DNA from: Clostridia bacterium
GTDB taxonomy: Bacteria > Bacillota > Clostridia > Oscillospirales > CAG-272
Assembly: GCA_017505785.1 (NCBI GenBank)
Contig: JAFVOQ010000040.1
Coordinates: 1 to 41,844 of the forward strand
Length of the DNA: 41,844 nucleotides
Direction: 5' to 3'
Shown: positions 13,191 through 39,300 of the stretch, piece by piece
Position numbering within the stretch: the first letter of the stretch is position 1
Layout of the letters: each line of letters opens with the position of its first letter
Translations under genes and position numbers: made by a program
Notes under the pieces: model-generated
Told to the model about the DNA's origin: nothing
The model's database searches: none
The model's input: only the letters and a program-made list of their open reading frames with translations

Positions 13191-13368
13191 CGGTGTGTTG
13201 CACCCTTTTTTGGCAAAACTCTGCTCTTTCAAAGTGGGTAACGGCGTTTTTTTCTTTGGCTGAATGGGGGGGAATTACAGAAAAATTTTAACAAAAAAGC
13301 GGTTTTTGTCAAACTGCACAATTTGGCATTTCTTTTTTGTTTGAAACGGAGAAATTGGGGGGTAAGCG

Positions 13369-13397
13369 TTGACGGGTATAAAAAAAATATGTATAAT
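13369..13397 (+). promoter_or_regulatory. Promoter of the beta-helix surface protein gene
   Basis: TTGACG at 13369-13374 and TATAAT at 13392-13397 are separated by 17 bases. This leaves a leader of about 85 bases before the ATG at 13489, with AAAAGGAG at about 13474-13481 as the ribosome site. Confidence 0.85.
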
Positions 13398-13488
13398 GTA
13401 TTTGAACCTTTTTCAATTTGTGCACATGTTGTTCACAAATCGAACAAAAATGGCGGAATTTCCGCAATACGAGAAAAGGAGAAAAACT

Positions 13489-19350: not shown

Positions 19351-19377
19351 GCCAAAGCTAAAAGGCTTCAAAACAAT

Positions 19378-19446
19378 CCGCAAGGAGGCACGCCTCCTTG
19401 CGGCAAATAAAAATCCCAACTGCTTTTGCGGTTGGGATTTTTTGTT
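19378..19446 (+). terminator. Two tandem hairpins ending the beta-helix gene
   Basis: The first is a perfect 11-bp stem (CCGCAAGGAGG, loop CACG, complement) at 19378-19403. The second is AAATCCCAAC at 19411-19420 paired with GTTGGGATTT at 19431-19440, followed by T's. The second is a classic intrinsic terminator; the first may add strength or protect the mRNA end. Confidence 0.92.
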
Positions 19447-19474
19447 ATGAGATGTTTTATTATGAGATGTTTTA
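19445..19474 (+). repeat. Tandem direct repeat, 15 bp x 2
   Basis: TTATGAGATGTTTTA occurs twice without change at 19445-19459 and 19460-19474, between two convergent terminators. It is non-coding. It may be a slippage product; no function is visible. Confidence 0.85.
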
Positions 19475-19485
19475 TAACACATAAT

Positions 19486-21720: not shown

Positions 21721-22776
21721 TTATCTTTTTACCAAATATTTTCGCATATCAATGGCGCAAGCAATGAGAATGATCAGACCCTTGATGATATATTGCATAT
21801 TGGCATCAATGCCAAGGAAGGTCAGCCCCACAAAGATCAGGCGCAGCAGCACAACACCAAGTATTACACCGCCGATCTTGCCCGTGCCGCCCACAAAGGA
21901 AACACCGCCGATTACGCAGGCTGCAATTGCATCGAGCTCATAGTTAAGACCGGTTGCCGCGCTGTTTGATCCGATACGTGCCGCTTCGATAAAGCCCGTC
22001 ACGCCGTAAAGAACACCCGCGAGAGTAAACACCAAAATGATCACACGCTTCACGTTTACACCTGACACGTTGGCAGCCTCGGGATTAGAGCCGACAGCGA
22101 ACATGTTTTTTCCAAAGGCGGTCTTGTTCCAAACGACCCACATGATAGCGGTGATCGCAACCACATACCATACATAATTGGGAATGGGCGTGCCACCAAG
22201 CGAAAACACGCTCCCCTTAATAAAATTGGTATAGGAAGGGTCAAGCCCCGAGATCGATTGCCCGTTATTGTTGCCTGTCATTAAAAAAAGCAGCAGCGCG
22301 CCGTAAATGATGAGCTGTGTGGAAAGGGTTACGATAAACGGATGCAGGTGAAATGTTGCCGAGCAATAGCCGTTAATAAATCCTGCAAGAGCACCAATGG
22401 CGATGACAAGCAAAAAAACCAGGGCTATGGGGAGGGTGGAAAGGCTTGGAAACATTTTACCCGCGTATCCCGTCATTTGCAAGAGAGCTGCGGAAATACA
22501 CGCCACAAGCCCTACGATGCGGCCGGCGGAAAGATCAGTGCCGGTCAAAATAATGGCCCCTGCAATGCCGAGCGCGATTGGCAAATTGGCAGCAGAAAGG
22601 GAGATGATGTTGATAATGGAGGACCAGGAAAGAAACCTTGGATTGAGGCATTGGATGAGAATAATAGCGGCGACAAGAAAAATATAAAGAGAATTGTTGA
22701 TAAGAAGCTCGGAAAGCCATACGCGCCGTTCATGCTTATCCATGCTTTTGATTTTTTCGATACATTTCATTTTCAC
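21721..22776 (-). CDS. mglC: Galactose/methyl-galactoside-type ABC transporter permease
   Basis: This 351-residue permease of the MglC/RbsC family forms the membrane channel. Around eight to ten hydrophobic segments are visible. The family motif GAIILTGTDLSAGRIVGL stands near residue 75 and GVSFVGGTGKIGGVILGV near 300. The chosen start is GTG at 22776, with AAGGGAG seven bases upstream; an upstream ATG in the same frame lies within mglA and gives unrelated residues. It follows mglA by 17 bases. The C terminus is DMRKYLVKR. Confidence 0.92.
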   Translation of the reverse strand: MKMKCIEKIKSMDKHERRVWLSELLINNSLYIFLVAAIILIQCLNPRFLSWSSIINIISLSAANLPIALGIAGAIILTGTDLSAGRIVGLVACISAALLQMTGYAGKMFPSLSTLPIALVFLLVIAIGALAGFINGYCSATFHLHPFIVTLSTQLIIYGALLLFLMTGNNNGQSISGLDPSYTNFIKGSVFSLGGTPIPNYVWYVVAITAIMWVVWNKTAFGKNMFAVGSNPEAANVSGVNVKRVIILVFTLAGVLYGVTGFIEAARIGSNSAATGLNYELDAIAACVIGGVSFVGGTGKIGGVILGVVLLRLIFVGLTFLGIDANMQYIIKGLIILIACAIDMRKYLVKR

Positions 22777-22793
22777 AAATGATCTCCCTTCGG

Positions 22794-24311
22794 CTATACG
22801 TTTTGGGCGGCAAGGGTCATGATTTCTTCCTGTGTGGTTTTGGCGGCATCCACCTCGCCTGTTACCTCGCCACCCGACATCACATAGATGCGGTGACAAA
22901 TACCGATCAGCTCGGGCAGCTCGCTTGATATCACCAAGATCGCTTTGCCACGCGAGGCAAGCTCCTCAATAAGCTGATAGATTTCATATTTTGCACCTAC
23001 ATCAATGCCGCGTGTCGGTTCGTCAAGCAAAAGAATTTCGGGGTCGGTAAGGAGCCAACGGCCAAAAATAACCTTTTGCTGATTGCCGCCTGAAAGTGTG
23101 CGTATTTGTGTGCTGCGTGCCGCGGTCTTAACAGACAGCCTTTTTATCAATTCGTCGGTTTTTTCAGCACGTTTGCGGTCGTTTATCAAAATTTTTCCGA
23201 AAAGGAAGGAGGGAAGTGAGGAAACGGTCATGTTTTCGGTGATGTCAAGAATACCGAAAATACCGCTTGCGCGTCGCTCCTCGGTAACAAATGCAAATCC
23301 GTTTCGCTTTGCCTCGCGTGCTGTTTTGTTTTGAATTTCTTTTCCGCTAAGATACAGCTTTCCGCTTTGCCGTGCCGATAATCCGAAAATGTTTTCAAAA
23401 AACTCGCTTCGCCCCGCGCCTGCAAGACCTGCAAGTCCGACAATTTCGCCGCGCCGCACGGAAAGAGAAACGTTTGATACTCTTTGATAGCGCGACGTGA
23501 TGTCCTTGGCCTCAAATAGCACCTCTCCCGGCTTTGAGGTCTTTTTGGGGAAGCGATTGGAAAGCTCGCGCCCGACCATGAAACGGATGATTTTTTCCAT
23601 TGTCATTTCCGTCGCGGGGGCAGTTGCCACGTTGGCACCGTCACGCATGACGGTAATGTCATCGGAGATGCGTAGGATCTCCTCCATTTTGTGCGAGATA
23701 TAGATGATGCCGCATCCCCTTTTCTTCAGCATCTCTATGATGCGGAACAGGTGTTCAACCTCGCCCTCTGTCAGTGAAGAGGTAGGCTCGTCAAGCACAA
23801 TGATCTTTGCATCATAGGATACCGCCTTGGCTATTTCTGCCATTTGGCGTTCTGCTACCGACATGGTGGACATGATGCGCGCAGGATCGATAGAAAGCCC
23901 CAAATTTTGAAGCACGTGTTGCGTTTTTTTATACGTTTCACGGTCCGAGGTGAAGATGCCGAGCTTGGTGGGATAACGGCCAAGCCAGATATTATCCATA
24001 ACACTGCGCTTCAGTGCTTGATTCAGCTCTTGGTGCACCATGGCAACGCCATGATCAAGCGCCTCGCGCGGATTTTGGAAGCGAACCGGCTTTCCCTCAA
24101 GAAGTATCTCGCCCTTATCCTCGGTATAAATGCCGAAAAGGCACTTCATCAGTGTTGATTTTCCCGCACCGTTCTCTCCCATAAGTGCGTGCACGGTTCC
24201 TTTGCGAACTGTCAGCGACACATCTCGCAACGCACGCACCCCGGGAAAGGTTTTGCTAATGCTGCGCATCTCCAGTAAAGGAGGGCTTTTTTGAGTACCG
24301 TTAGCCGACAT
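22794..24311 (-). CDS. mglA: Sugar ABC transporter ATPase (two NBDs)
   Basis: This 505-residue protein is the fused double ATPase of the MglA/RbsA family. The first NBD has Walker A GENGAGKST at 45-53 and Walker B IIVLDEPTSSL. The second has the degenerate P-loop GLAGAGRSEFF, signature LSGGNQQKV and Walker B LLLDEPTRGIDVG. One degenerate P-loop is normal in this family. The ATG overlaps the end of mglB by 11 bases and has no clear ribosome site, so translation is probably coupled. It powers uptake with mglC. Confidence 0.94.
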   Translation of the reverse strand: MSANGTQKSPPLLEMRSISKTFPGVRALRDVSLTVRKGTVHALMGENGAGKSTLMKCLFGIYTEDKGEILLEGKPVRFQNPREALDHGVAMVHQELNQALKRSVMDNIWLGRYPTKLGIFTSDRETYKKTQHVLQNLGLSIDPARIMSTMSVAERQMAEIAKAVSYDAKIIVLDEPTSSLTEGEVEHLFRIIEMLKKRGCGIIYISHKMEEILRISDDITVMRDGANVATAPATEMTMEKIIRFMVGRELSNRFPKKTSKPGEVLFEAKDITSRYQRVSNVSLSVRRGEIVGLAGLAGAGRSEFFENIFGLSARQSGKLYLSGKEIQNKTAREAKRNGFAFVTEERRASGIFGILDITENMTVSSLPSFLFGKILINDRKRAEKTDELIKRLSVKTAARSTQIRTLSGGNQQKVIFGRWLLTDPEILLLDEPTRGIDVGAKYEIYQLIEELASRGKAILVISSELPELIGICHRIYVMSGGEVTGEVDAAKTTQEEIMTLAAQNV

Positions 24312-25368
24312 ATTTTTCGTAGTGGATGCGCAGTTTTCGCACGTTTTGGTCTACTGTGAAGTCGCCTGTGTCTGCCATAAGGTCGCGTTCTGCCAGCGCG
24401 TTTTTCGCAAGGTGAAGCAGTGCCGATGCCATGCCAACGGCATCCTGCTTAATGGTGCCACTCATCTGCCCGTTTGCAATCAGATTTTTGGCTGCGTCTG
24501 TGGCATCAACGCCAAAAACGGGAACGGTTGGTGCGGTGCCGCCTGTGTTATAGCCAACTGCATTCAGTGCGGAGATCGCGCCCTCTGCCATGCCGTCGTT
24601 GTTGCAGATCACGAGCTCGATCATGTTATTGTTTGCTGCGTTATATTCTGTCAGAGCCGTTGTCATATATTCGTTTGCTGCGGTGGCAGACCATAGCCCG
24701 TTTTTGTCTACCAGGTAGCCGTTTTTATTTGCGGCATCGTAAAATTTAAGTGGCTTTTTGCCTGCGTCGACCAGCTTTTTGTTGGCCTCCTCAACGCTGT
24801 ACTTCGTGCGGAAAATTGCCTCGTTGTTGCCTTCCTCGCCCTTGAAAAGCACATAGGAAATCTCGCCGTTGCCGTTTAGGTCGTATTTGCTCCAGTTTGC
24901 CAGCAGATATTCGCCGATCAATTCTCCCTGCAAAATACCTGCTTCCTCGGCGCGTGTGCCCACAAATGCGCAATTCTCATAGCCTTTGATCACCTCATCG
25001 CTGACCTCGCGGTTAAAGAAGATCAGCGGAACTCCCGCATCTTTTGCAAGAGATGCGATTTCGCTTGCAGCATCATCAGAGCCCGTGTTTACAATGTTTA
25101 CAAGAATGGCCTTTGCCCCTTTGGTGAGTGCGGTGCGGATCTGCTCGGTCTGCGTTGTCTGACTGCCGTTCCCGTCATAATCCTGATAGGAAATGCCGGC
25201 ATTTTGCAATTCCTTGTCGAGTACCGTGCGTACGGAGGAAATATAGGTGTCGCTGTAATTATAGTAAAAAACATGCACGTCGGCGTTCTGGTTGCCGCTG
25301 CACCCGGTAAGGAAAGGGACAGTCAGTGACAACGAAAGCACCAGTGCCAAAAAACTTCTTTTCATCAT
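24301..25368 (-). CDS. mglB: Galactose-type sugar-binding lipoprotein
   Basis: This 355-residue lipoprotein has a signal peptide and lipobox (FLTGC, Cys23), so it is anchored outside the membrane. It is a type I periplasmic-binding-protein fold of the galactose/glucose family: NYSDTYISSVRTVLDKEL at the start, LVNIVNTGSDD in the middle, then FFNREVSDEVIKGYENCAFVGT, then VFGVDATDAAKNLIANGQM near the C terminus. Two ATG codons stand in tandem (25368, 25365) behind AAGGCGG. It is the first gene of the operon. Galactose is the best guess for the substrate, but ribose or another hexose cannot be excluded. Confidence 0.92.
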   Translation of the reverse strand: MMKRSFLALVLSLSLTVPFLTGCSGNQNADVHVFYYNYSDTYISSVRTVLDKELQNAGISYQDYDGNGSQTTQTEQIRTALTKGAKAILVNIVNTGSDDAASEIASLAKDAGVPLIFFNREVSDEVIKGYENCAFVGTRAEEAGILQGELIGEYLLANWSKYDLNGNGEISYVLFKGEEGNNEAIFRTKYSVEEANKKLVDAGKKPLKFYDAANKNGYLVDKNGLWSATAANEYMTTALTEYNAANNNMIELVICNNDGMAEGAISALNAVGYNTGGTAPTVPVFGVDATDAAKNLIANGQMSGTIKQDAVGMASALLHLAKNALAERDLMADTGDFTVDQNVRKLRIHYEKYVG

Positions 25369-25911: not shown

Positions 25912-25941
25912 TTGACTTTGCGTAGTTTTTTGTGGTAAAAT
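25912..25941 (+). promoter_or_regulatory. Probable promoter of the 13-kb import operon
   Basis: TTGACT at 25912-25917 and TAAAAT at 25936-25941 are separated by 18 bases. The predicted start is near 25948, leaving a leader of about 195 bases before the ATG at 26145. Confidence 0.72.
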
Positions 25942-25947
25942 GTTGCC

Positions 25948-26134
25948 ATACAGCGAGGCCCCTGTGCAAGTGGGGGCTTCGGGTGCTTACTTCGGATATG
26001 CCGAAAAGCGAAACGGCCCGCGTGGCCGTTTCACTATGTTTCTTTTCGTGCGTGTGCGGCGTAGGCACGCGTTGCGTGTGGCGGCGTTTCCTGCCGTGGC
26101 ACGCCAATACGAAGAACTGCGAGTGCAGTAAGAG
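25948..26134 (+). promoter_or_regulatory. Structured 5' leader of the import operon
   Basis: The leader folds into several hairpins: GAGGCCCC with GGGGCTTC near 25960-25981, TTCGG/CCGAA at 25991-26005, and a perfect 9-bp stem GAAACGGCC/GGCCGTTTC at 26010-26032. More G/C-rich pairing follows up to the AGAGGAGG ribosome site. I recognise no known riboswitch class. It could be a stabilising leader or an attenuator. Confidence 0.5.
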
Positions 26135-26144
26135 GAGGAAAAAC

Positions 26145-29100
26145 ATGAAAAAGAAGATGCTCCAACGACTTCTTGCCTTGGTCCTGGCGGTGACCTTCAT
26201 TTTCGGCGGCACGCTGACGATCGGTGCTACCGGTGAAGGTGCAGGTGGCTCGAATTCTACCACCGATAAGACCTTGGCGGATATCAGGGAACAACTCAAT
26301 GCAGACGATTATGAGGCGTACATCAAAAACTACGATGATGTTGAAAGAGCCACGGCTGCCATTGAGATCGACGGCACACAGTACAAAGAGTTTGTAAAGG
26401 GTTCTACCACAGGCTCTGATGTGCGCGAAATTGTTCTCGATGACGGAACTAAGCTGCTTTACACACCGAATTCGGGTACTACGACGTGGGAGGTCAACAT
26501 TCCCGCTACTGCAAAGTACAGCATCATTATCAATTATCTGCCCGATGATGCAAAAACCGCATCGATCGAGCGTATTTTGAAGATCGACGATGCCATTCCC
26601 TTTGCCGAGGCACGCTTTTTGACGCTTTCCAAAACGTGGAAGAACCAATACACGTATGCTAAGGTTGAAGCAACAAAGGAGGCTTCGGTTTCGGATATTC
26701 ACGCCGAGGCGTTGGCTGCAGGCTTTGCCTCTGCACAGACCGTGACCGAGAATGGTAAGACTTACGTTTGCTTGGAGATCCCCTCTGTGTGGACTTCTGC
26801 GCTCGCTGATTTTGTGACCAAATATACGGTTCGCTTCTTTACTAAGGATATTGACGGCAACGAGCTGCGTCCCAGCATGGTGCAGACTCCTACACTCAGC
26901 TGGTATGAGCTGCGCGATGCGGACGGCTTCTATGCGGAAACGTTCGAGTTTGTATTTGAGGCGGGCACGCGCACCATTTCCTTGGAAGCGGTCAACGAGC
27001 CCCTCTCCATCAAATCGATCGTTCTCGTTCCTCACGTGGATCTTGATTCCTACGAGGGCTACTTAAAGCAATTTGCCAATGTTGGTTCCGGTACCGATAA
27101 GGTTCTGATCCAAGCGGAGTACTCAGGCGCAACCTCCTCGCAGACCGTTTATCCTGCAGAGGACCGTACCGATGCTGCTACCTTGCCCTCTGATACGACC
27201 TGCACGCTGCTGAACACCATTGGCGGTGAAAAGTGGCAGACCGCGGGTCAGTGGGTGCGCTATTCCTTTAAGGTAAACAAGAGTGGCATGTATAACATTG
27301 CCGCCCGTTACCGTCAAAACGTGCTTGACGGTATGTACGTTTGCCGTTCGTTGCGCATTTCCAGTGTGGGTGCTGCTGCCGGTGAGCCCGGGTATTATGA
27401 CGGCTCCATTCCGTTCTTTGAGGCGTCACAGCTGCGCTTCAATTACAGTGCAGAATGGCAGTCTACACTGCTTAATAACGGTGGAGATGCATTCCAATTC
27501 TACTTTGCGGAAGGCGTGGAATACACCATTACGCTTGAAGTAGCACTTGGCTCCATGGGTGACATTGTGCGCCGTGTGGAAGCGGCTCTTTCCTCTATTA
27601 ACAGCGATTATCTTGCAATCGTTAAGCTTACGGGTGCGGATCCCGATGAATACCGTGATTACGGCTTCTCCCGTGCAATGCCTGATGTTATGATCGACAT
27701 GATCCTGCAATCCCGCGAGCTTTATGCGATCTCTGAGCAGCTGTCTGCTATCACGGGTGAAAAGAGCTCAAGCGTGGCTACGCTTGAAAAGGTTGCTTGG
27801 CTGCTTGATCGTATGGGTACCAACGAGGATGAGGTTGCAAAGTATTTGGATCAGCTTAAATCCTACATCGGCTCTCTTGGTACTTGGGTGAGTGATGCGA
27901 AAACGCAGCCTCTCCAGCTTGACTATTTGGTGGTACAGCCGCTTGGCGATGAGCTTCCCCAAGCAAAGGCGGGCTTCTGGAAGGCACTTTGGCACGAGCT
28001 TTCGAGTTTTGTGATGTCCTTCTTCCGCAACTATGACCGTATGGGTGCTGCGTCTGAGGATGGGGGTGAAACGAGCATTGATGTATGGGTTGCATCCGGC
28101 CGTGACCAGGCGCAGGTTCTTCGCAATCTGATCAATAACGAGTTTACGCCTAATAGCGCGCTTCAAACCACTGTGAATCTGAAGCTTGTAGCCGCCGGTA
28201 CGCTGTTGCCCTCTGTTCTTTCGGGCATGGGCCCTGACGTTTATATAGGCGTTGGTGAAGGTAACGTAATCAATTATGCGATCCGCGGTGCAATCCTCCC
28301 TGTGGAAAACATGGAGGGCTTTGAGGAATACACCAAGGCAAACTTCAACGAAGCTGCCATGGTGGTGCTTGGCATTGAGGATTCTGACGGTGTTTATCAC
28401 TGCTACGGCTTGCCCGAAACGCAGAACTTTGAAATGATGTTCGTGCGTGAGGATATTCTTGCGGACCTTGGCATTGAGATCCCGAAAACATGGGACGATG
28501 TGCTTGCCGCGATTCCGACGCTGCAGGCAAACAACATGCAGATCGGTATGCACGCGAACTATCAAGTCTTCCTATATCAAATGGGCGGCACGCTCTTTGC
28601 CGATAACGGCATGCGTATCAACCTCGACTCTAACGTCGGCCTTGAGGCGTTTGATACGATGTGCAGCTTCTTTACGATGTACTCCTTCCCGAAATCCTAT
28701 GATTTCCCGAACCGTTTCCGTACAGGCGAAATGCCGATCGGCTTTGCCTCTTACAACGCTAACTACAACCAGTTGACCGTATTTGCAACCGAGATCAAGG
28801 GCCTTTGGAACTTCTATCCGCTGCCCGGTATCGAACAGGCTGACGGCACGATCAACAACGTTGCCGTTGCGACCGTTTCCGCGATTTGTATGATGAACGG
28901 CTGCGGCAGCGAGGGCGGCGAGGCAGGCGAGCTTGATAAGGCGCGCGCATGGGAGTTTATGAAGTGGCACTCGGGCGCGGACTGCCAAATTGCGTATTCC
29001 AACGAAATGGTTGCGATCATCGGTCCTTCCGCAAAGCATGCGACTGCAAACCTCAATGCACTTTCGGAAATGCCCTGGACCGCGGCGGAGCTTGAGCAGT

Positions 29101-29564
29101 TGCTTTACCAGTTCAACAACCTCGCATCTATTCCCGACTACCCCGGCACTTATATTATTGGTCGTTATACCAACTTTGCATTCCTTGCTGCTTACAATGA
29201 TAACAAGGATCCCATTCAAGAGCTGCAAAGCTACATTACAATTATAAACAAAGAGATCACGAGAAAACGTGAGGAGTTTGGACTTGAAACTCTTGAGATC
29301 GGTCAAACTCTTAAGAGCAAGCGTCTTGATCAGATGAAAGAGGCCTGGGAGTCTGATATAAAGAACCTTGGGCAAGAGAGCTCGCTTGCAAAATCGGCAA
29401 CAAAGATCATGGGTGATATTCCCGCATTTATCGAGAATGAGAAGTACGATTTGGTTGAGTATCACGTGTTGCAATTTGTTCTTGCCGAATTAAAGGCGCT
29501 TGATGCTTCTGCGTTCGCAGGTACCATCAATGCACTTGAAAGAGCGATCCTTGTGATGGCATAA
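26145..29564 (+). CDS. Giant secreted solute-binding protein with beta-sandwich N-terminal region
   Basis: This 1139-residue protein has a Sec signal peptide (MKKKMLQRLLALVLAVTF, cleavage near GAT-GEG) and no lipobox, unusual for a Gram-positive binding protein. The N-terminal half (about 30-640) looks like two carbohydrate-binding-type beta sandwiches; the second (about 318-478) has VLIQAEYSGATSS and GQWVRYSFKVNKSGMYNIA, as in CBM6-like modules. Residues about 640-1000 are an ABC family 1 sugar-binding fold: IDVWVASGRDQAQVLRNLIN, GPDVYIGVGEG, GIEIPKTWDDV. A helical tail of about 140 residues ends the chain. The start has AGAGGAGG upstream. It is the first gene of the operon and should feed the permeases that follow. 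The ligand is unknown. Confidence 0.88.
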   Translation: MKKKMLQRLLALVLAVTFIFGGTLTIGATGEGAGGSNSTTDKTLADIREQLNADDYEAYIKNYDDVERATAAIEIDGTQYKEFVKGSTTGSDVREIVLDDGTKLLYTPNSGTTTWEVNIPATAKYSIIINYLPDDAKTASIERILKIDDAIPFAEARFLTLSKTWKNQYTYAKVEATKEASVSDIHAEALAAGFASAQTVTENGKTYVCLEIPSVWTSALADFVTKYTVRFFTKDIDGNELRPSMVQTPTLSWYELRDADGFYAETFEFVFEAGTRTISLEAVNEPLSIKSIVLVPHVDLDSYEGYLKQFANVGSGTDKVLIQAEYSGATSSQTVYPAEDRTDAATLPSDTTCTLLNTIGGEKWQTAGQWVRYSFKVNKSGMYNIAARYRQNVLDGMYVCRSLRISSVGAAAGEPGYYDGSIPFFEASQLRFNYSAEWQSTLLNNGGDAFQFYFAEGVEYTITLEVALGSMGDIVRRVEAALSSINSDYLAIVKLTGADPDEYRDYGFSRAMPDVMIDMILQSRELYAISEQLSAITGEKSSSVATLEKVAWLLDRMGTNEDEVAKYLDQLKSYIGSLGTWVSDAKTQPLQLDYLVVQPLGDELPQAKAGFWKALWHELSSFVMSFFRNYDRMGAASEDGGETSIDVWVASGRDQAQVLRNLINNEFTPNSALQTTVNLKLVAAGTLLPSVLSGMGPDVYIGVGEGNVINYAIRGAILPVENMEGFEEYTKANFNEAAMVVLGIEDSDGVYHCYGLPETQNFEMMFVREDILADLGIEIPKTWDDVLAAIPTLQANNMQIGMHANYQVFLYQMGGTLFADNGMRINLDSNVGLEAFDTMCSFFTMYSFPKSYDFPNRFRTGEMPIGFASYNANYNQLTVFATEIKGLWNFYPLPGIEQADGTINNVAVATVSAICMMNGCGSEGGEAGELDKARAWEFMKWHSGADCQIAYSNEMVAIIGPSAKHATANLNALSEMPWTAAELEQLLYQFNNLASIPDYPGTYIIGRYTNFAFLAAYNDNKDPIQELQSYITIINKEITRKREEFGLETLEIGQTLKSKRLDQMKEAWESDIKNLGQESSLAKSATKIMGDIPAFIENEKYDLVEYHVLQFVLAELKALDASAFAGTINALERAILVMA

Positions 29565-29604
29565 CCTCGATTACATTTAAATTAGTGCTGTAAGGAGAAA
29601 AAAC

Positions 29605-30540
29605 ATGTCAAAGAAAAAAGCGGTGATCCGATCGGACATGACGCGTGCACAATGGACATGGAAAGAGATGAAGCGCAATAAGGTTGCCTATGCTATGATA
29701 GCACCTTATATGCTGATCTTCACGCTTTTCACCGTCGTTCCTGTTGCGCTTTCGATGGTGATCAGTTTAACAAACTTTAACCTGCTCGAGGTTCCGGATG
29801 TGGTTTGGCTTGACAACTACATTCGTCTGTTCCTTGATGACGATATCTTTATTCTTGCTTGTAAAAACACCTTGATCTTTGCAATGATCGTAGGACCTGT
29901 TTCTTACTTGATGTCCCTGATGGTTGCATGGTTCATCAACGAGCTGCCTCCCAAGATCCGTGCTTTGGTAACGCTCGTCTTCTATGCACCCTCCATTTCC
30001 GGTCAGGTGTACCTCATTTGGGGTACCCTGTTCTCGGGTGACTCTTACGGTTGGGTCAACGGTATTTTACTTGATCTTGGCATCATTACCAAAGAAATTC
30101 AATGGTTCCAAAATGCCAGCTATGTTATGCCGCTTTGTATTGTGGTTGCACTTTGGACATCGCTTGGCACCTCGTTCCTGTCCTTTATTGCAGGTCTGCA
30201 GGGTATTGACCGTTCGATGTACGAGGCAGGCGCGGTTGACGGCGTGCGTAACCGTTGGCAAGAGCTTTGGTATATCACGCTGCCCTCCATGAAGCCTCAG
30301 CTGATGTTCGGTGCCGTTATGGCAATCACATCCTCCTTTGGCTTTGGCGGCGTAGTTACCGCGCTTTGCGGCTTCCCGTCTGTGGATTACGCGGCGCATA
30401 CCATCATGCACCATCTTGATGACTACGGCAGTCAGCGCTTTGAGGTCGGCTATTCCTCGGCGATTGCGGTTGTCCTCTTTGCAGTAATGATCGGTGCCAA
30501 CATGCTGGTTAAGAAAGTGCTTTCAAAGGTGGGTCAGTAA
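29605..30540 (+). CDS. Sugar ABC transporter permease A1 (LacF/UgpA type)
   Basis: This 311-residue permease has about six membrane segments, a basic cytoplasmic start and the EAA loop EAGAVDGVRNRWQELWYITL that docks the ATPase. MIAPYMLIFTLFTVVPVALS is the first helix. It follows the binding-protein gene by 40 bases with AAGGAG before the ATG. It pairs with the next gene. No ATPase gene lies in the operon, so an MsmX-like shared ATPase is inferred. Confidence 0.93.
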   Translation: MSKKKAVIRSDMTRAQWTWKEMKRNKVAYAMIAPYMLIFTLFTVVPVALSMVISLTNFNLLEVPDVVWLDNYIRLFLDDDIFILACKNTLIFAMIVGPVSYLMSLMVAWFINELPPKIRALVTLVFYAPSISGQVYLIWGTLFSGDSYGWVNGILLDLGIITKEIQWFQNASYVMPLCIVVALWTSLGTSFLSFIAGLQGIDRSMYEAGAVDGVRNRWQELWYITLPSMKPQLMFGAVMAITSSFGFGGVVTALCGFPSVDYAAHTIMHHLDDYGSQRFEVGYSSAIAVVLFAVMIGANMLVKKVLSKVGQ

Positions 30541-30541
30541 T

Positions 30542-31417
30542 ATGTCAAAGAAACTTCGTACAAGAAAACATAAAGTCGTACTGAACCGTTCGGCCGGCGG
30601 TGATGCGGGCATCAGCGTGATGCTGATCATTTTGGGAGCTTTCATGTTCCTGCCCATGATATACGTTATCAGCCAGTCCCTCAAGCCTCTGGATGAGTTG
30701 TGGATGTTCCCCCCGCGCTTTATTGTGCGCAATCCTACCTTCAAAAACTATCGCGATCTGTTCATGCTGATGAACACCTCGTGGGTGCCCTTCTCGCGTT
30801 ACATCTTTAATACCGTATTCACCTCTGTTACGGGTACGGTCGGAAACCTGTTCTTCTCCTCTCTTGCGGCGTATGCTATGGCAAAGATCAAGTTCCCGGG
30901 TCGTAAATGGATGTTTAAAACGGTAAGAACCTCGCTGATGTTCCACTCCACCGTTACAGCGATCACTTCCTTTATTATTATGAGTGCGCTGAACTGGGTC
31001 GATACGTATTGGGCGATCATCGTTCCTGCTTGGGCAACCTCACTTGGCCTTTACCTGATGAAGCAGTTTATGGAAACCAACGTTTCCGATGCGGTGCTCG
31101 AGTCTGCCCGTCTTGACGGTGCCTCTGAGCTGTACACTTTCTGGGTGATCGCAATGCCCATGGTTAAGCCCGCTTGGCTGACGCTGATCATTTACTCCTT
31201 CCAGGATCTCTGGAATAAGGGTGCTTCGATCTATATCCATTCCGAGCAGTTGAAATCCTTCAACTACGCGATCGGTCAGATCATGGCGGGCGGTGTTAAG
31301 CGCGCAGGTGCACACGCAGCTTCGCTTGTTATCATGATGTTTGTGCCGATTCTTGTGTTTGTTATTACCCAGTCCAACATTATCGAAACGATGGGCTCTT
31401 CCGGTATGAAAGATTAA
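30542..31417 (+). CDS. Sugar ABC transporter permease B1 (LacG/UgpE type)
   Basis: This 291-residue partner permease starts MSKKLRTRKHKV at 30542, one base after the stop of A1; an upstream in-frame ATG at 30494 lies inside A1 and is unlikely. It has five or six membrane segments and the EAA loop ESARLDGASELYTFWVIAMP. FMFLPMIYVISQSLKPLDELW is the typical helix and periplasmic loop of this group. The ribosome site (AAAGGTGG) is weaker than in neighbouring genes, so coupling to A1 is likely. Confidence 0.93.
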   Translation: MSKKLRTRKHKVVLNRSAGGDAGISVMLIILGAFMFLPMIYVISQSLKPLDELWMFPPRFIVRNPTFKNYRDLFMLMNTSWVPFSRYIFNTVFTSVTGTVGNLFFSSLAAYAMAKIKFPGRKWMFKTVRTSLMFHSTVTAITSFIIMSALNWVDTYWAIIVPAWATSLGLYLMKQFMETNVSDAVLESARLDGASELYTFWVIAMPMVKPAWLTLIIYSFQDLWNKGASIYIHSEQLKSFNYAIGQIMAGGVKRAGAHAASLVIMMFVPILVFVITQSNIIETMGSSGMKD

Positions 31418-31432
31418 TTAAGGAGGAAAAAC

Positions 31433-33616
31433 ATGAAAAAAATCATATCTGTTACATGTGTGCTGTTTGCCCTCCTAATGGTGCTTTCCATTCCGGTGGG
31501 TGCTGCACAGGCATACACAACCTACACCTATTCAATTAGCGGCTCTCCGCTGTATTCTCCGGATGCCTATACAGCAGAGAAGGTCATTAACTCCACCACC
31601 ATGGGTGTTAAGACGCCGCTTTCCAATGTGAATGATATGGTTACCGATAAGGACGGCAATGTTTATATTGCCGACACCGATAACAACCGTATCATTTGCC
31701 TTGACCGTTATTTCCATCTTCGCTTTGAGATCCAAAACTTTACCAACGATCAAGGTATTGCCGATTACTTTACCAAGCCTGAGGGCGTATTCGTAACTGA
31801 GGATCGCTATGAAGGGAATAAGTTAAAGTATAAGGGCCGCATTTTTGTGTGCGACACCCAGGCAAACCGCATAGTAACCTTTAACCGCGACGGCAGCTTT
31901 GACTCCATTATCGAAGCTCCCAAGTCTGAGCTGTTTGGTGAGAATGCCGTTTACTGGCCGGTAGCAATTGCGGTTGATGCTTACGAAAGACTTTACGTGG
32001 TTTCCAGTGAGACCAGTGAGGGTATCATCGTTATGACCGATAAGGGCGAGTTCACCTCCTTTATCGGTGCACAGCAGTCGGTGCTTTCCCTGTGGGATCA
32101 AATTTGGCGTCGCTTCCAGACTAAGGAGCAAAGAGAGAGATCTGAAACGGTCATTTCCTATCCTTATAATAACATTACCATTAACGAGAATGGATTCATT
32201 TACGCAAGTATTTACGCAGAGGACCTGCTTTCTCAAATGGAGGCTGCGATCACTTCAAAGGCAATTAGCGGTGAGTATGCACCCGTAAAGCTGCTTAACC
32301 CGGCCGGTGATGAGATCATGCGTCGTAACGGCTTTTGGCCGCCTGCGGGTGAAATCGATTACGCGCCTATGGGCGCCGGCCTCGGTACTGCGGCAAATAT
32401 TTCCCGTATTGAGGACGTCGCATGCGGTCCTGAAGGTACTTGGTCGATCTTTGATTATCATCGTAGCAAGATCTTTACTTACGACTATGACGGCAACCTG
32501 CTCTTCGCTTTTGCGGATACGGGTAGCCAGCTCGGTAACTTTACCGAGAGATCGATCCGTGCGATCTGCTATCAGGATGATGTTTTCCTTGTGCTGGATG
32601 CATCGGGTAACATAACTGTGTTTAAGCGTACCGAGTACGGTGATGTGCTGGTTCGTGCTCTGTATCATCAAAACCAACGTCTTTACGACCTTGCGATGAA
32701 TGACTGGAGTGAGATCCTGATGCGTAACTCCAACTACGATGCTGCTTATGTCGGTATTGGTAAGTGCTTGTCCCAAGGTAACGTGGGTAAGTATGAGGAG
32801 TCGCTCGACTATTTCCGCGCGGCATACGACACCCAGTACTATTCGGTTGCGTATAAGGAAATTCGTAAGGAGTGGATGTCCCGCTTCTTCCTGTGGATCC
32901 CTATTGTTATTGTAGCGGTCTGTGTGCTGATCAGCAAATTCCTCAAGCATGCGGGTAAGATCAATAAGCAGGTGGCTGTTTCTGGTAAAACGCGCACCTT
33001 TAAGGATGAGCTTTACTATGTATTCCACGTGATGTTCCATCCTGTGGACGGCTTCTGGGATCTAAAGCACGAGAAACGCGGATCTGTGCGCGGTGCATTG
33101 GTATTCCTTGTCATTACTATGCTGGCATTGTTCTACCGTGCAATCGGCTCGGGTTATATTATGAATCCGCAGGGCACAGGCAGTGCAAATATCTTTATGC
33201 AGATTTTGGTGGTATTTGTGCCGGTTCTTCTGTTTGTACTTGCCAACTGGTGTCTTACTACCTTGTTTGAGGGCGAAGGCAACTTTAAGGATATTTTTGT
33301 TGCTGTCGGATACTCGGTGCTGCCCATTGCAATTACCACCATTCCCGTAACCCTGTTCTCTAACTTTGTGGTAAGTGAGGAGCTTAACATTCTCAATCTT
33401 ATTGCAATTCTCGGCTTTATCTGGGCAGGCATGCTGCTCTTCTTCGGTACAATGGTTACGCATGACTACAGTATGGGTAAAAACATCCTTACTGTTGCCG
33501 GCACCGTAATCGGTATGGCGTTTATCATGTTCCTTGCGATACTCTTTGCTTCACTTGTTACGGACATGGTTACCTTTGTTTCCGGAATTGTAGCCGAGAT
33601 CAACTATCGACTGTAA
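31433..33616 (+). CDS. NHL-repeat, TPR-like and Yip1 membrane protein
   Basis: This 727-residue protein has a signal peptide (MKKIISVTCVLFALLMVLS). Residues about 60-390 carry NHL beta-propeller repeats (VNDMVTDKDGNVYIADTDNNRI, split by loops; AVDAYERLYVVSS). Residues about 414-480 are TPR-like (YDLAMNDWSEILMRNSNYDAAYVGIG). One membrane segment lies near 483-502. A C-terminal Yip1-type domain with about five membrane helices spans 524-727. The propeller should be outside and the Yip1 part in the membrane. AAGGAGG precedes the ATG by seven bases. The gene sits between two permease pairs, so it may scaffold or sense a bound polymer. The role is inferred, and the family has no assigned function that I know of. 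Confidence 0.82.
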   Translation: MKKIISVTCVLFALLMVLSIPVGAAQAYTTYTYSISGSPLYSPDAYTAEKVINSTTMGVKTPLSNVNDMVTDKDGNVYIADTDNNRIICLDRYFHLRFEIQNFTNDQGIADYFTKPEGVFVTEDRYEGNKLKYKGRIFVCDTQANRIVTFNRDGSFDSIIEAPKSELFGENAVYWPVAIAVDAYERLYVVSSETSEGIIVMTDKGEFTSFIGAQQSVLSLWDQIWRRFQTKEQRERSETVISYPYNNITINENGFIYASIYAEDLLSQMEAAITSKAISGEYAPVKLLNPAGDEIMRRNGFWPPAGEIDYAPMGAGLGTAANISRIEDVACGPEGTWSIFDYHRSKIFTYDYDGNLLFAFADTGSQLGNFTERSIRAICYQDDVFLVLDASGNITVFKRTEYGDVLVRALYHQNQRLYDLAMNDWSEILMRNSNYDAAYVGIGKCLSQGNVGKYEESLDYFRAAYDTQYYSVAYKEIRKEWMSRFFLWIPIVIVAVCVLISKFLKHAGKINKQVAVSGKTRTFKDELYYVFHVMFHPVDGFWDLKHEKRGSVRGALVFLVITMLALFYRAIGSGYIMNPQGTGSANIFMQILVVFVPVLLFVLANWCLTTLFEGEGNFKDIFVAVGYSVLPIAITTIPVTLFSNFVVSEELNILNLIAILGFIWAGMLLFFGTMVTHDYSMGKNILTVAGTVIGMAFIMFLAILFASLVTDMVTFVSGIVAEINYRL

Positions 33617-33636
33617 GCGCGGAAAGGAGATAAAAA

Positions 33637-36600
33637 ATGAAAAATAAAAAACTGCTGATGCGGTTGCTCTGCGCGCTTCTGTCGATCGTGATGCTTGCGT
33701 GCATGATCCCCGCAATAACGGTTTCCGCAGCGACCAAATCGAATGAGGAAACCGTAATCGATTATACCAGTGTAGCATACGAAAGTGCCGAGGCGCGCTA
33801 TCAAGCGATGAAGGAATACTACAATGACGGTGTTTATGCGCTTGCTTGCGATGAAAAAATCGGTGTCGTTGCATACAAAAAGATCGCCACCGGTGAAATC
33901 CTCTTCACCAACCCTTGGGATATGACCAAGGAGCCCTCTAAAGAGACCAGCGTTCGTGAAGAGATGATGGCTCAGGTCATTTTGACTTACGCCGATAATC
34001 AGGGTGGTGGCAAAACTCTCAATAGTTACACAGATGCTATACTTAAGGGACAATTTGCGGTAACACCCATTCAAAACGGTGTACGTGTAGAGTATGCGAT
34101 AGGTGAAATTTCAGCTCGTATTCTCGTGCCGCTTCGTATTGAGAGAACGAGCTTTGAAGAAAAGATCATGAAGCCCCTTGAGGAAAATCTGTCGACTCGT
34201 AATTTCAGCAAATTCATGGCCTACTATTCTCTCAAGAAGCAGGGTGGTAGCGGTATTGCCGCTGCATATCCCGTAACAGAGGAGAAGGGGATCGATATTT
34301 ATGTTTACAATGATGACGTGACCAAAACGAAGGTTCTTCGTGAGCTTGAGGCATGGATTCTTGAATACTGTCCCGATTACTCCTTTGCACAGATGGATGA
34401 GGACTATGAGTTTGTGGATTTTGAATACGAGGCTAAATCGCCTGCAGTATTCAGAATGGCACTTGAATATACGGTGGATGCAAACGGTCTGTCGGTATCT
34501 TTGCCTGCAAACGGCTTGCGTTACGACGAGACTGAGTACCGTATTACCGACCTTAAAATTTTGCCGTATATGGGCGCAAGTTACAAGGGCAATACCGGCT
34601 TGGACCGCGTAACAGGCGTGCCGATCGACGGCGGTGTGACCTATTCGGGCTACTCCTTCATTCCTGACAGCTCAGGTGCCTTGTATGAGTTGACGCAGGT
34701 CATTTCTCGCCCTGCCCGTGTGTACGGTGAGGACTATGCACTGTACTCGGTAATAGGCTCGCATGTTGCGCCTATGCGCATGCCTGTGTTCGGTCAGGTG
34801 GAAACGGCTACTTATCCTGACGGCAGAACGGAAAGCCGCGGGTTCCTGGCGATCATTGAGGAGGGTGAATCCCTGGCTTCTATCGCTCCGAACCACTCCA
34901 CTAAGTTCTATTCCTCGGTAGTTGCATCGTTTATTACACGTCAAGCGGATACCTCCACATCAAGCTGGTCTGTATATGCAAACCGTCGCTATACCGATGA
35001 TTACAAGCTGCGCTACATCATTCTTTCCGATGATACAAAGGCACAAGCTGCATCGCTCAATAGCTATTACGAGTGCTCTTGGATGGGCATGGCGTGTGCA
35101 TACCGCGATTACCTGGATTCCAAGGATAACGGCTTTGAGCGCCTTGGCGCAGAGGATGTTTCGGCATCTATTCCGCTTTACATTGAAACCTTTGGCTGTA
35201 AGGATACTGTCAAGAAGATTATGTCTATTCCCGTAACTGTTTCTGTGTCGCTTACCTCCTTTGAGGATATTGAGACCATGTACGGGTATTTGGTCGGTGA
35301 GGGTGTTACGAATGTAAACTTTAAGCTTACCGGCTACGCAAACGGCGGCCTTTATTCGGAGGTTCCCTACAAGCTGAAATGGGAGAGCTCTGTTGGCGGT
35401 AAATCCGGCTTTAAGGATTTGCTTGAATTTGCAGCAGAGCATCCTGAGCTTGGCATTTTCCCCGATTTTGATTTTGTTTATACCAGCTTTGGCGGTGCTT
35501 CTGTTGATATGAAGAAGTACGGTGCGCGTACGGTAGATAATCGCTATACTACCAAGCGTACGTATTCGGTTACACAGCAAACGCTTATCAGCTACTATCA
35601 AATGGTTCTTTCTCCCGCAACCTTCAGCCACTTCTACGAAAAGCTTGAGAAGAAGTACAGCAAGTATGAGAACGGTGCAATTTCGCTCTCTACCATGGGT
35701 AGCGACCTGAACTCCAGCTTTGATGAAGAGCAGACCTCGCTTCGTGAGGATTCCAAGAACTACACCATGCAGGCACTTGAGTACTTTACCTCACGCGACT
35801 ATGAGGTTATGGTAGATGGCGGTAACGCGTTTACCTGGGGCTATGCCGATTACATTCTCGATGTACCGCTGAGCTCTAACCGTTATGTCAACGAGCTGGC
35901 AACGGTTCCTTTCATGGGCGTTGTTCTTCATGGCTATGTACAGTTTGCAGGCAGCGCACTCAACCTTGAGGGTAACCTTTCCTATGCAATGCTCAAAGCA
36001 ATGGAAAGCGGCGCGGGCATATACTTCCTGCTCTCCTACACCAACACCGAGCTTTTGAAGGAGGATATCCTTCTTTCTCAGAATTATTCGGTTCGTTACG
36101 ATATTTGGCAGACTCGCCTGGTTGAGATCTACAAGGAGCTCAACTCCGCGCTCTGCGATGTGCAGACCAAGCTCATTATCGACCACGAGCTGCTTGACGG
36201 CACGCGCGTTCCCGATACGGATGAGCTGTTGCAGGATGCACTTGAAGAGGCACAGAAGGAAGCTGCTGCTGTGGCTGCAAGACGTGAGAATATTGCGCTT
36301 GCTACCGCAACGCTCAATCAAATCAACACGCGCTTCACGCAGTACAAGGCTGAGCTCGCTACCAAGTATGCGGCAATGCAGGCATTGCGTGATGCCAACA
36401 GTGATTTGATGAAAGCATGGGATGCTTACGTTGCAAATCCGACAGATACAGCTGTAAAGCAGGTGTTCTTCTTGACGCTTACCGCATCTGTGGCAGAGCC
36501 CATGGCAGATCTTATCCTGTTAAAGGCAACTGTTGATGAGCTGAAGACTGTGGCAGAAAAGAATTATCAGTTCTTGGTTGATACGAAGGCTGAGGCTGAT

Positions 36601-37119
36601 ATTGTTGCTGCTGCAAAGACCGTGCTTGATGCGATTGTTGACACCTATAACGAGATCGTTGCTGCCTATGGCGTAGCTACTGAAAATCTTGGTTACGTTC
36701 ATGCAGATCACCGCGCTGCATTCCTTTACGGTGATGCAGCTTATGCAAGCGTTTCCGTTGAGGACCTTTGCGCACTCTTTGTAGCTGCGCTGAAGGGTGA
36801 TTTGCAGGGAGATGATCAAGCGATTGATCTTGGAAATTTGATCACCACGCTTTCCGAGGGACTTGTGGTTAAATCTGAGCCTGTTGCAGGTGCTGCAAAC
36901 AATGCAGCAAACGGCAGCGTTGATTCTTCTTACAAGTATGCAGTTGACAGTGAGATCGTATATGTCACCTACGGTGATTATGCAAACGGCAAGCCCGTGG
37001 CTTACAAATCCTTTATTCTTAACTTCAATGATTATGCAGTCACTACCACGGTTGACGGTGTTGTATATCACATCGATGCTTACGGTTATGCTGTGATCCT
37101 GCATAACACCAATTCTTAA
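33637..37119 (+). CDS. DUF5696 family secreted protein
   Basis: This 1160-residue protein has a signal peptide cleaved near TVSA-ATKS (residues 29-32). The first 500 residues are mostly beta-rich, with many Tyr/Asp-containing strands. Residues about 506-828 carry the DUF5696 core, which starts ISA-type strands such as SIPLYIETFGCKDTVKKIM and includes the FPDFDFVYTSFGG segment and VMVDGGNAFTWGYADYI. This looks like a TIM-barrel glycoside-hydrolase-like domain, but I cannot name catalytic residues. Residues about 831-1014 are long helices, probably coiled coil (EALEEAQKEAAAVAARR-type). GGAAAGGAG precedes the ATG. It lies between the Yip1/NHL gene and a permease pair. Confidence 0.82.
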   Translation: MKNKKLLMRLLCALLSIVMLACMIPAITVSAATKSNEETVIDYTSVAYESAEARYQAMKEYYNDGVYALACDEKIGVVAYKKIATGEILFTNPWDMTKEPSKETSVREEMMAQVILTYADNQGGGKTLNSYTDAILKGQFAVTPIQNGVRVEYAIGEISARILVPLRIERTSFEEKIMKPLEENLSTRNFSKFMAYYSLKKQGGSGIAAAYPVTEEKGIDIYVYNDDVTKTKVLRELEAWILEYCPDYSFAQMDEDYEFVDFEYEAKSPAVFRMALEYTVDANGLSVSLPANGLRYDETEYRITDLKILPYMGASYKGNTGLDRVTGVPIDGGVTYSGYSFIPDSSGALYELTQVISRPARVYGEDYALYSVIGSHVAPMRMPVFGQVETATYPDGRTESRGFLAIIEEGESLASIAPNHSTKFYSSVVASFITRQADTSTSSWSVYANRRYTDDYKLRYIILSDDTKAQAASLNSYYECSWMGMACAYRDYLDSKDNGFERLGAEDVSASIPLYIETFGCKDTVKKIMSIPVTVSVSLTSFEDIETMYGYLVGEGVTNVNFKLTGYANGGLYSEVPYKLKWESSVGGKSGFKDLLEFAAEHPELGIFPDFDFVYTSFGGASVDMKKYGARTVDNRYTTKRTYSVTQQTLISYYQMVLSPATFSHFYEKLEKKYSKYENGAISLSTMGSDLNSSFDEEQTSLREDSKNYTMQALEYFTSRDYEVMVDGGNAFTWGYADYILDVPLSSNRYVNELATVPFMGVVLHGYVQFAGSALNLEGNLSYAMLKAMESGAGIYFLLSYTNTELLKEDILLSQNYSVRYDIWQTRLVEIYKELNSALCDVQTKLIIDHELLDGTRVPDTDELLQDALEEAQKEAAAVAARRENIALATATLNQINTRFTQYKAELATKYAAMQALRDANSDLMKAWDAYVANPTDTAVKQVFFLTLTASVAEPMADLILLKATVDELKTVAEKNYQFLVDTKAEADIVAAAKTVLDAIVDTYNEIVAAYGVATENLGYVHADHRAAFLYGDAAYASVSVEDLCALFVAALKGDLQGDDQAIDLGNLITTLSEGLVVKSEPVAGAANNAANGSVDSSYKYAVDSEIVYVTYGDYANGKPVAYKSFILNFNDYAVTTTVDGVVYHIDAYGYAVILHNTNS

Positions 37120-37134
37120 GGGAGGTAAAAGCTT

Positions 37135-38115
37135 ATGACAAATCAAGTGAAAGTGACGGCAGCCGCCGCACCGGTAAAGAAAAAGAAAATACCCTCCCTT
37201 GATAGAAAGAAATCTCGCGCGGGTTGGCTCTTTGTATTGCCGTTTATTATCGGATTGATCTTCATCTATTTCCCCATTCTTTGGGAATCGATTTCCTACA
37301 GCTTTTATAATTACACGTCTGTGAAAGGCATTGTAACCAAAGAATTTGTGGGCTTTGAGCACTATACTACCGCGTTTACGGGTGATGCTAAGTTTGCCCA
37401 GTCATTGCTGACGGGCTTGCAGGAAATGGCATTTGATATTCCCGCAATCCTCATTTTCTCGCTCTTTGTTGCGGTGATCCTGAATCAGAAAATGGTAGGC
37501 CGTGCGGCGTTTCGTGCTATTTTCTTCCTTCCCGTTGTGGTATCTACGGGTGTTATGGAATCGGTTATGTCCTCGTCTTACGGTGCCTCCGGCAACCAAA
37601 TGGATTTGGGTATGGAGGAAGGTGAAGAAGCAGTTGAGGAATTAGCAACCTCAACTGCGATCGAGGGACTACTCGTCAGTATTTTCAGCAGCCTTGGCTT
37701 TGGTACAGGTCTTGTTACTTACATTTCCTCTGCTGTTGCAAGTATTTCGGGTATTATAAACCGTTCGGGCGTGCAGATCTTGATCTTCCTTGCAGCCTTG
37801 CAATCGATTTCTCCTGCTATTTATGAGTCCTGTCAGATCGACGGTGCTACCTCGTGGGAAACCTTCTGGAAGATCACCTTCCCAATGGTGAGCCCCATGA
37901 TCTTGGTAAATGCTGTTTATACGATAATTGACTCCTTTACCACAGATTCCAACTCTGTTATGCAGTTGATTAACAATACGTATATGGGCGTTGAGGCCGG
38001 CGCAAAGCACGTGAGTGCTGCTATGGGTTGGATGTACTTCCTCGTAGTATTGGCGATAGTTGGCATCGTGGCAGGTATTTTCTCCATGTATGTCTTCTAT
38101 CAGAGAAGAGATTAA
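37135..38115 (+). CDS. Sugar ABC transporter permease A2
   Basis: This 326-residue permease of the LacF/UgpA type has an N-terminal Lys-rich stretch and about six membrane segments. The EAA loop is ESCQIDGATSWETFWKITF. Between the third and fourth segments it has an acidic insert with DLGMEEGEEAVEELATS, longer than in permease A1; the insert may reach a partner protein outside. AGGGAGG precedes the ATG by eight bases. It follows DUF5696 by 15 bases and pairs with the next gene. Confidence 0.93.
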   Translation: MTNQVKVTAAAAPVKKKKIPSLDRKKSRAGWLFVLPFIIGLIFIYFPILWESISYSFYNYTSVKGIVTKEFVGFEHYTTAFTGDAKFAQSLLTGLQEMAFDIPAILIFSLFVAVILNQKMVGRAAFRAIFFLPVVVSTGVMESVMSSSYGASGNQMDLGMEEGEEAVEELATSTAIEGLLVSIFSSLGFGTGLVTYISSAVASISGIINRSGVQILIFLAALQSISPAIYESCQIDGATSWETFWKITFPMVSPMILVNAVYTIIDSFTTDSNSVMQLINNTYMGVEAGAKHVSAAMGWMYFLVVLAIVGIVAGIFSMYVFYQRRD

Positions 38116-38133
38116 GGAAAGGAGGATGTTAAT

Positions 38134-39249
38134 ATGACACAAAATATGGATAACAAACCGCAAGTTAAGCGCGAGTCCAAAAATAAGATTCGTGTTGACT
38201 TTGAGCGTACCAGCTTAAAGGAACGCCTTAAGGCAAAGTATCTTTCTTCTTATTTTGCTAAAAATGTGCTATGGTACATCTTCCGCCTCCTTCTGCTCAT
38301 TGGTATCGCCTTTGTCATTCTCAAGCCCTTCTACACGATGATCATGCGTTCCTTTATGGAACCCGAAAATTTTGTGGATGCTACGGTTGTGAATGTGCCG
38401 CGTGCTTTCTCGGCAATCATTTATAAGTCAATTATTGTAGACTTGGAATATTTCAAGGTGTTTTTCCTTACCTTGGCGCTTTCCCTTGGATGTGCGCTTT
38501 TGCAAACCTTCTCCTGCGCATTGGTTGGTTACGGTCTTGCAAAGTTCAAATTCCGTGGTGCAAAAGCCGTGTTCCTTCTGGTTATTCTCAGCTTGGCAAT
38601 TCCGCACGGTACCATGCAGTCTGCAATATTCTATCGCTTCCAGCACTTGGATATTTTCGGAATCTTCAATTTCCTCGCGGGCGGTGCTCGCACAGGCATT
38701 GAGGGTATTGATAATATTCTTTCCAAGATCAAAATTTTGCCGGAAAGCTTTGTAGGCGGTATTAGTACAATCAGAAGCGTTGTACCGATTCTGCTGCTTT
38801 CCGTAACGGGTCTTGCCTTTAAGAACGGTCTTTACATCTTTTTGCTTCGTCAGTTCTTCCGCGGTGTGCCTGATGAGCTTGAAGAATCTGCCTACCTTGA
38901 CGGCGCAAACACCTTCCGCACCTTTGTGCAGGTTATTTTGCCGCTTTCCGTTCCGATGCTTATCACCGTGTTCCTGTTTGCGTTCTGCTGGCAGTGGACA
39001 GATGACTTTTACATTCCGTTGTTCTTTACGGGTCAGCCTCCTGCTTTGATGACGTATTTGCCCCAGATTGATGAAATTCCCATCACCTTGGCAACCATTT
39101 ATACGCAGGTTACGCACTCAAGCGGTGCGTACAAAAAGGCAATCGTTTACGGTTGTGGCTTGATGACATGCGCGCCCCTGATTATTCTTTACCTCTTCTG
39201 CCAGAGATACTTGGTACAGGGTATCGAACGTTCGGGTATCGTTGGATAA
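38134..39249 (+). CDS. Sugar ABC transporter permease B2
   Basis: This 371-residue permease of the LacG/UgpE type has a long basic N-terminal stretch of about 45 residues, then six membrane segments. The EAA loop is ESAYLDGANTFRTFVQVIL. GKAxV-type pairing helices are normal, but a region after FQHLDIFGIFNFLAGG is longer than usual. AAAGGAGG lies upstream of the ATG. It is the last gene of the operon and ends before a strong terminator. Together with A2 it forms a second heterodimeric channel in the same transcript. Confidence 0.93.
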   Translation: MTQNMDNKPQVKRESKNKIRVDFERTSLKERLKAKYLSSYFAKNVLWYIFRLLLLIGIAFVILKPFYTMIMRSFMEPENFVDATVVNVPRAFSAIIYKSIIVDLEYFKVFFLTLALSLGCALLQTFSCALVGYGLAKFKFRGAKAVFLLVILSLAIPHGTMQSAIFYRFQHLDIFGIFNFLAGGARTGIEGIDNILSKIKILPESFVGGISTIRSVVPILLLSVTGLAFKNGLYIFLLRQFFRGVPDELEESAYLDGANTFRTFVQVILPLSVPMLITVFLFAFCWQWTDDFYIPLFFTGQPPALMTYLPQIDEIPITLATIYTQVTHSSGAYKKAIVYGCGLMTCAPLIILYLFCQRYLVQGIERSGIVG

Positions 39250-39260: not shown

Positions 39261-39300
39261 AAAAAAAATAAGTATCCCCTACGGGGGATACTTATTTTTT
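39261..39300. terminator. Bidirectional terminator of the import operon and glpK
   Basis: ATAAGTATCCCC pairs with GGGGATACTTAT around a short TAC-type loop, flanked by A7 on the left and T7 on the right. It can end the plus-strand import operon and the minus-strand glpK transcript, although it lies about 127 bases beyond the glpK stop. Confidence 0.93.

Follow-up and report, generated by a model that had tools for sequence, protein, structure and literature searches.

A conserved seven-gene block of Clostridia that may encode a glycan importer with two permease pairs

CUT1 sugar importers that work with MsmX, MsmK or UgpC are built from an SBP_bac_1 binding module and MalF/MalG-type permeases with EAA loops, and their ATPase is encoded outside the transporter locus. 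The athe_0595-0598 locus of Anaerocellum bescii, which carries no ATPase gene, is reportedly served by MsmK (PMC12838199). In Gram-positive bacteria, one permease pair and a lipoprotein binding protein (SBP) are the norm for this class. The window analysed here (41,844 nucleotides of a Clostridia bacterium, contig JAFVOQ010000040.1) contains a block with an SBP_bac_1-type protein and BPD_transp_1 permeases with EAA loops, and the genome encodes a UgpC/MsmX-type ATPase, all of which place it with the CUT1 importers; it departs from the Gram-positive norm in having two permease pairs and a binding protein that lacks a lipobox. The same seven-part block is carried by pNP243 of Butyrivibrio fibrisolvens and by a plasmid of Paenibacillus cellulosilyticus, where it has been annotated gene by gene and has apparently not been studied; these copies differ in that NHL and YIP1 are separate in Butyrivibrio, that extra ordinary SBPs are present, and that the Paenibacillus block includes UgpC. 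Searches of a literature library returned no paper mentioning DUF5696 and none on Yip1 with NHL and ABC or on Caldicellulosiruptor with NHL; a broader search for the Yip1 domain returned transporter papers, and the term 'Yip1 domain' was absent from those listed. The seven genes probably form a cell-surface importer, likely for sugars, that is conserved but apparently undescribed.

All seven open reading frames were confirmed as co-directional genes on the + strand at 26145-39249, where the sequence-only reading had placed them, and the short gaps (40, 1, 15, 20, 15 and 18 bp in gene order) and AGGAGG-like ribosome sites ahead of the genes agree with its description. Together with their flanking signals, the features of the window are:

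25912-25941, + strand: promoter TTGACT-18-TAAAAT with an extended -10 TG, the best promoter-like match on the + strand in the region
25942-26144, + strand: structured 5' leader with several hairpins (RNA fold z-score -4.15)
26145-29564, + strand: giant binding protein (SBP), block A, 1139 aa (Pfam, PDB profile, alignment)
29605-30540, + strand: permease P1a, block A, MalF/UgpA-type (Pfam BPD_transp_1, NCBIfam UgpA-like; EAA loop YEAGAVDGV...LP)
30542-31417, + strand: permease P1b, block A, MalG/UgpE-type (Pfam, NCBIfam; EAA loop ESARLDGAS...MP)
31433-33616, + strand: NHL/TPR/Yip1 membrane protein, block B, 727 aa (Pfam, PDB profile, hydropathy, partial AF2)
33637-37119, + strand: DUF5696 protein, block B, 1160 aa (Pfam, PDB profile, hhalign, residue counts)
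37135-38115, + strand: permease P2a, block B (Pfam, NCBIfam; EAA loop YESCQIDGATS...FP)
38134-39249, + strand: permease P2b, block B (Pfam, NCBIfam; EAA loop EESAYLDGANT...LP)
about 39266-39300, + strand: intrinsic terminator AAGTATCCCC-TAC-GGGGGATACTT with a T-run (sequence, scan)

Pfam assigned SBP_bac_1 (PF01547) with an E-value of 3e-10, Yip1 with 1e-18, NHL with 2e-5 and DUF5696 with 1e-118. BPD_transp_1 was matched by all four permeases, three of them above the curated cut-off and P1b just below it (22.9 against 26.4 bits), and the translations of all four keep the EAA coupling loops. For P1b, the ATG at 30542 (291 aa) is better taken as the start than the alternative GTG at 30494 (307 aa). 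No ATPase gene lies inside the seven-gene block.

The promoter is conserved as the block TTGAC...TGxTAAAATxTTGCCA across 12 aligned relatives, and the terminator, a strong inverted repeat followed by a T-run, lies 3' of P2b, the last gene. Given that one conserved promoter and one strong terminator frame the block, the seven genes are likely to form a single transcript. Between promoter and first gene, none of 200 shuffled versions of the leader (~200 nt) folded as stably as the native sequence; relatives also carry a leader, the sequence of which has changed, and an Rfam search for a known element gave no match. The upstream intergenic region is common to the block and to a divergent operon for an Mgl-type (CUT2) galactose importer at 21721-25368.

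The block is nearly universal in the window's family, a large family of Clostridia, with DUF5696 present in 137 of 146 genomes (102 of the 104 of good quality). Phylum-wide, DUF5696 was found in 42 of 348 genomes, 33 of them with strong matches. Of the 58 loci that we extracted, 38 belong to the window's family and 20 to 13 others; a few overlap, having been fetched from the same place. The NHL/Yip1 gene is located directly 5' of DUF5696 in 58/58, and the P2 pair follows 3' of DUF5696 wherever the contig allows. SBP-P1a-P1b lies upstream in most loci and 3' of the P2 pair (B-A order) in three, while two loci (L079, L080) lack it within about 8 kb. Outside the window's family, 12 of the 20 loci encode NHL and Yip1 in two neighbouring genes, as does pNP243. 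When the same 348 genomes were searched independently with NHL-Yip1 and with the N-terminal region of the giant SBP, both proteins were recovered in every one of the 33 genomes with strong DUF5696; among the other 315, the giant SBP occurred in only two (G249, G299) and NHL-Yip1 in only one (G388, partial). These counts, which exclude weaker matches such as shorter SBP-like reading frames and short NHL stretches, correspond to a Fisher p of about 1e-44. The seven-gene block is a conserved unit, and the 58/58 loci and 33/33 genomes rule out chance co-location. The sequence-only reading had proposed a joint system and had named rare proximity of DUF5696 and NHL/Yip1 to these permeases as the observation that would count against it; the neighbourhood survey revealed the reverse, and the invariant NHL/Yip1-DUF5696 adjacency, the accompanying permeases and the genome-wide co-occurrence all speak for such a system. 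Two unusual records were noted among the loci. One (L136; MT835600.1, 'Bacteriophage sp.', human faeces, UNVERIFIED) carries all seven parts of the block, NHL and Yip1 being split, together with an ordinary SBP; it is filed as phage but is probably a bacterial contig. In the other (L091 of genome G409), an Omp85/POTRA gene is found a few genes from the block, which is therefore also present in an apparently diderm lineage.

A search of the genome to which the window belongs (1.69 Mb, 97.9% complete) found a single OB_MalK ATPase, an orphan located between unrelated genes with no permease near, which scores above the cut-off for the UgpC family (466 vs 432 bits). Other permease hits in the genome comprised PotBC with its own ATPase, one permease near an amino-acid-type ATPase and a remaining hit that no NCBIfam sugar model matched at the threshold used; only two SBP_bac_1 proteins were present, the giant SBP and PotD, and outside the block the genome has neither permeases nor a binding protein of the CUT1 sugar type. 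The divergent Mgl ATPase was rejected as the driver because MglA is of the CUT2 type. With only one MalK-type ATPase in the genome and no other permeases of the CUT1 sugar type, the likeliest candidate for driving all four permeases is the lone UgpC/MsmX protein. The first gene of the block in P. cellulosilyticus is a UgpC gene, placed directly 5' of the giant SBP. Both observations fit the earlier proposal that the ATPase is encoded elsewhere.

Although the block is framed as one operon, pairwise divergence splits its genes into two co-evolving sets, which refines the earlier view of a single unit. Block A comprises the giant SBP, P1a and P1b, and block B comprises NHL/Yip1, DUF5696, P2a and P2b. 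Divergence correlates with r of 0.92-0.97 within A, 0.95-0.97 within B and 0.79-0.87 across the two; all these values are inflated by common species history, and it is the contrast between them that is informative. Inside the window's family, DUF5696 correlates with P2b at 0.94 vs 0.54 with P1b, while NHL-Yip1 is intermediate (0.91 with the giant SBP). The weaker covariation across blocks raises the question of whether A and B are two independent importers that travel together and take up different glycan products, with NHL/Yip1 and DUF5696 serving pair 2 only. Loci with block B only (L079, L080), those in B-A order and a genome in which the giant SBP and DUF5696 are both present with no contig common to their hits (G207) would fit such an arrangement, as would the smaller SBP of ordinary type, in many cases with a lipobox, that is found near the block in 16-17 of the 20 loci outside the window's family. 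However, A and B co-occur in 33/33 genomes even if unlinked, NHL/Yip1 covaries with the giant SBP as well, none of the 38 loci of the window's family has a second, ordinary SBP near the block, and the window's genome offers pair 2 no further sugar SBP of the CUT1 type. We therefore regard two separate importers as rather unlikely.

What pair 2 might use as its receptor is suggested by DUF5696. The protein is composed of a signal peptide, a beta domain, a GH129-like TIM barrel, a helical insert (~860-1080) and a C-terminal beta domain. The window's sequence alone gave no hits in the PDB and a profile was needed: an hmmsearch with a 20-sequence DUF5696 profile matched DagB/ZGAL_3152 (5opq, 8rzg) at 1e-11 and NagBb (5wzn) at 5e-7. 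The search of the family also recovered solo GH129-like proteins of ~580 aa from other genomes within it (L107-L113). They align with DUF5696 by hhalign at 99.8%, and one of them (L110, 4695-6422, - strand) matches NagBb at 4e-17 and GH101 at 1e-7. By this profile similarity, DUF5696 is a remote relative of GH129/GH101-type glycosidases. HMMER and hhalign agree that T686 of the window occupies the column of the nucleophile Asp of NagBb (D435), a residue reported to be conserved in DagB as D486 (PMC5698469). In this column, 31/31 DUF5696 proteins from the window's family have T/S, and 11 of the 20 from elsewhere have D. The second acid column, occupied in NagBb by Glu478, which we take to be the second catalytic residue, is variable, and for the window hhalign aligns D727 where HMMER aligns G728. 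The solo proteins, in contrast, keep Asp and Glu in 7/7 (HY[IV]D, SE[GS]), making them candidate new alpha-glycosidases. An AF2 model of DUF5696 with 11 close relatives was unusable (pLDDT 44), so that our statement on the active site rests on sequence and profile alignment. A search of 249 genomes with PF11308 (GH129) produced no match, but the controls were likewise unmatched and absence is not implied.

The barrel in the window's family is thus very probably devoid of retaining catalysis, and given that the solo relatives keep both acids, DUF5696 is here probably a non-cutting receptor. The sequence-only reading had allowed for a machine that cuts a polymer outside the cell, which the replacement of the nucleophile in all 31 family members argues against. 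An active surface glycosidase that trims glycans for the permeases would be in line with the resemblance of its profile to GH129-type enzymes (E about 1e-11) and, via the solo relatives, to GH101, as well as with the Asp found outside the family; set against T/S throughout the family and intact acids in the solo proteins, we consider this improbable. With D/E at both catalytic columns in 8 of the 20 other-family proteins, catalysis may persist in some of them. The helical insert (window 36200-36900), located before the C-terminal beta domain, is missing in distant relatives, and some family members exceed 2000 aa (see also loci L048, L071 and L072).

The giant SBP consists of a signal peptide, two CBM35/golvesin-like beta-sandwich regions, a helical spacer and the SBP_bac_1 module; it was correctly described from sequence as a 1139-residue protein without a lipobox. 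Its golvesin and CBM35 matches in Pfam are weak and mostly sub-threshold, whereas the best PDB profile match (5ysb, Lin1841; E 9e-31) covers the binding module only. Hits to YopM were judged spurious. The NHL/TPR/Yip1 protein carries a signal peptide, an NHL beta-propeller, a TPR region (~398-455), a transmembrane segment (~486-504) and a Yip1 membrane domain (531-702). Its AF2 model is reliable in the propeller only (strand pLDDT 70-94), and the models of this protein and DUF5696 are too weak for interface claims. The PDB profile search matched the propeller to its extracellular counterpart in PknD (1rwi), and a histidine kinase and a response regulator are encoded beside the block in Butyrivibrio; block B could on these grounds be mainly a glycan sensor signalling through NHL/Yip1, rather than an importer. 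Yet, the P2 permeases keep their EAA coupling loops, an SBP usually accompanies them outside the window's family, and Pfam reveals no signalling domain in NHL/Yip1, all of which leaves a sensor with little probability.

Sugar as the cargo is suggested by homology and by the CAZyme neighbours of the block in other lineages. Genes for GH43, GH3, GH35, GH30 and GH27 adjoin the block in other genomes, and such neighbours are common in other families, whereas within the window's family most of the genes around the block are not of the carbohydrate type, with one GH27 in one member. No CAZymes were seen among the window's tested neighbours, and the locus does not qualify as a Gram-positive polysaccharide utilisation locus. 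Elsewhere in the window, three large minus-strand reading frames (13309-19482; 431, 959 and 595 aa) have no Pfam match, and a plus-strand frame of 1993 aa antisense to them is probably spurious.

Taken together, we favour, by a modest margin over even chances, a conserved importer at the cell surface that takes up oligo- or polysaccharides and in which two co-evolving blocks work together, DUF5696 is a non-cutting receptor and one remote ATPase provides the energy. In block A, the giant SBP would capture glycan chains and feed permease pair 1. DUF5696 would hold the chain, or its end, at the membrane as the receptor for pair 2, and would there stand in for the ordinary SBP that other lineages keep beside the block. 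The NHL/TPR/Yip1 protein could use its propeller and TPR to dock the parts outside the cell and its membrane helices to seat them next to the permeases, and a UgpC/MsmX ATPase from elsewhere in the genome would power both pairs. The binding role of DUF5696, the docking role of NHL/Yip1 and a physical complex are our inferences. More tentatively, and with less than even probability, both permease heterodimers might belong to one machine organised by the propeller/Yip1 protein, with the giant glycan-binding protein, a degenerate glycosidase as second receptor and one shared ATPase. If so, one ABC importer can contain two permease pairs, and a glycosidase that has lost its activity can act as a substrate receptor. 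The block gives DUF5696 a concrete, testable context and ties bacterial proteins with Yip1 and NHL domains to probable glycan import. Close members of the window's family come from the ruminant gut, and given that no further CUT1 sugar importer is present in at least one member, the block may be how these bacteria feed.

Compared with CUT1 importers, the block stands out by two permease pairs per operon, a 1139-residue SBP that is not a lipoprotein, and the addition of NHL/TPR/Yip1 and DUF5696. The giant SBP itself differs from CUT1 binding proteins by its added N-terminal regions resembling carbohydrate modules; the closest solved relative of its binding module, Lin1841 of Listeria (5ysb), is about 400 aa long, lacks the long N-terminal part and is too distant for its substrate to be transferred. 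Similar to PknD (1rwi), NHL/Yip1 is a membrane protein with an NHL propeller outside the cell, but it has no kinase, and its propeller is followed by TPR and the Yip1 membrane domain. Finally, DUF5696 has the beta domain, TIM barrel, C-terminal beta domain and profile similarity in common with GH129 (NagBb, 5wzn; DagB, 5opq) and GH101 enzymes, from which it is set apart by Thr/Ser in place of the catalytic Asp, a variable acid/base column, a large helical insert and permeases as its neighbours.
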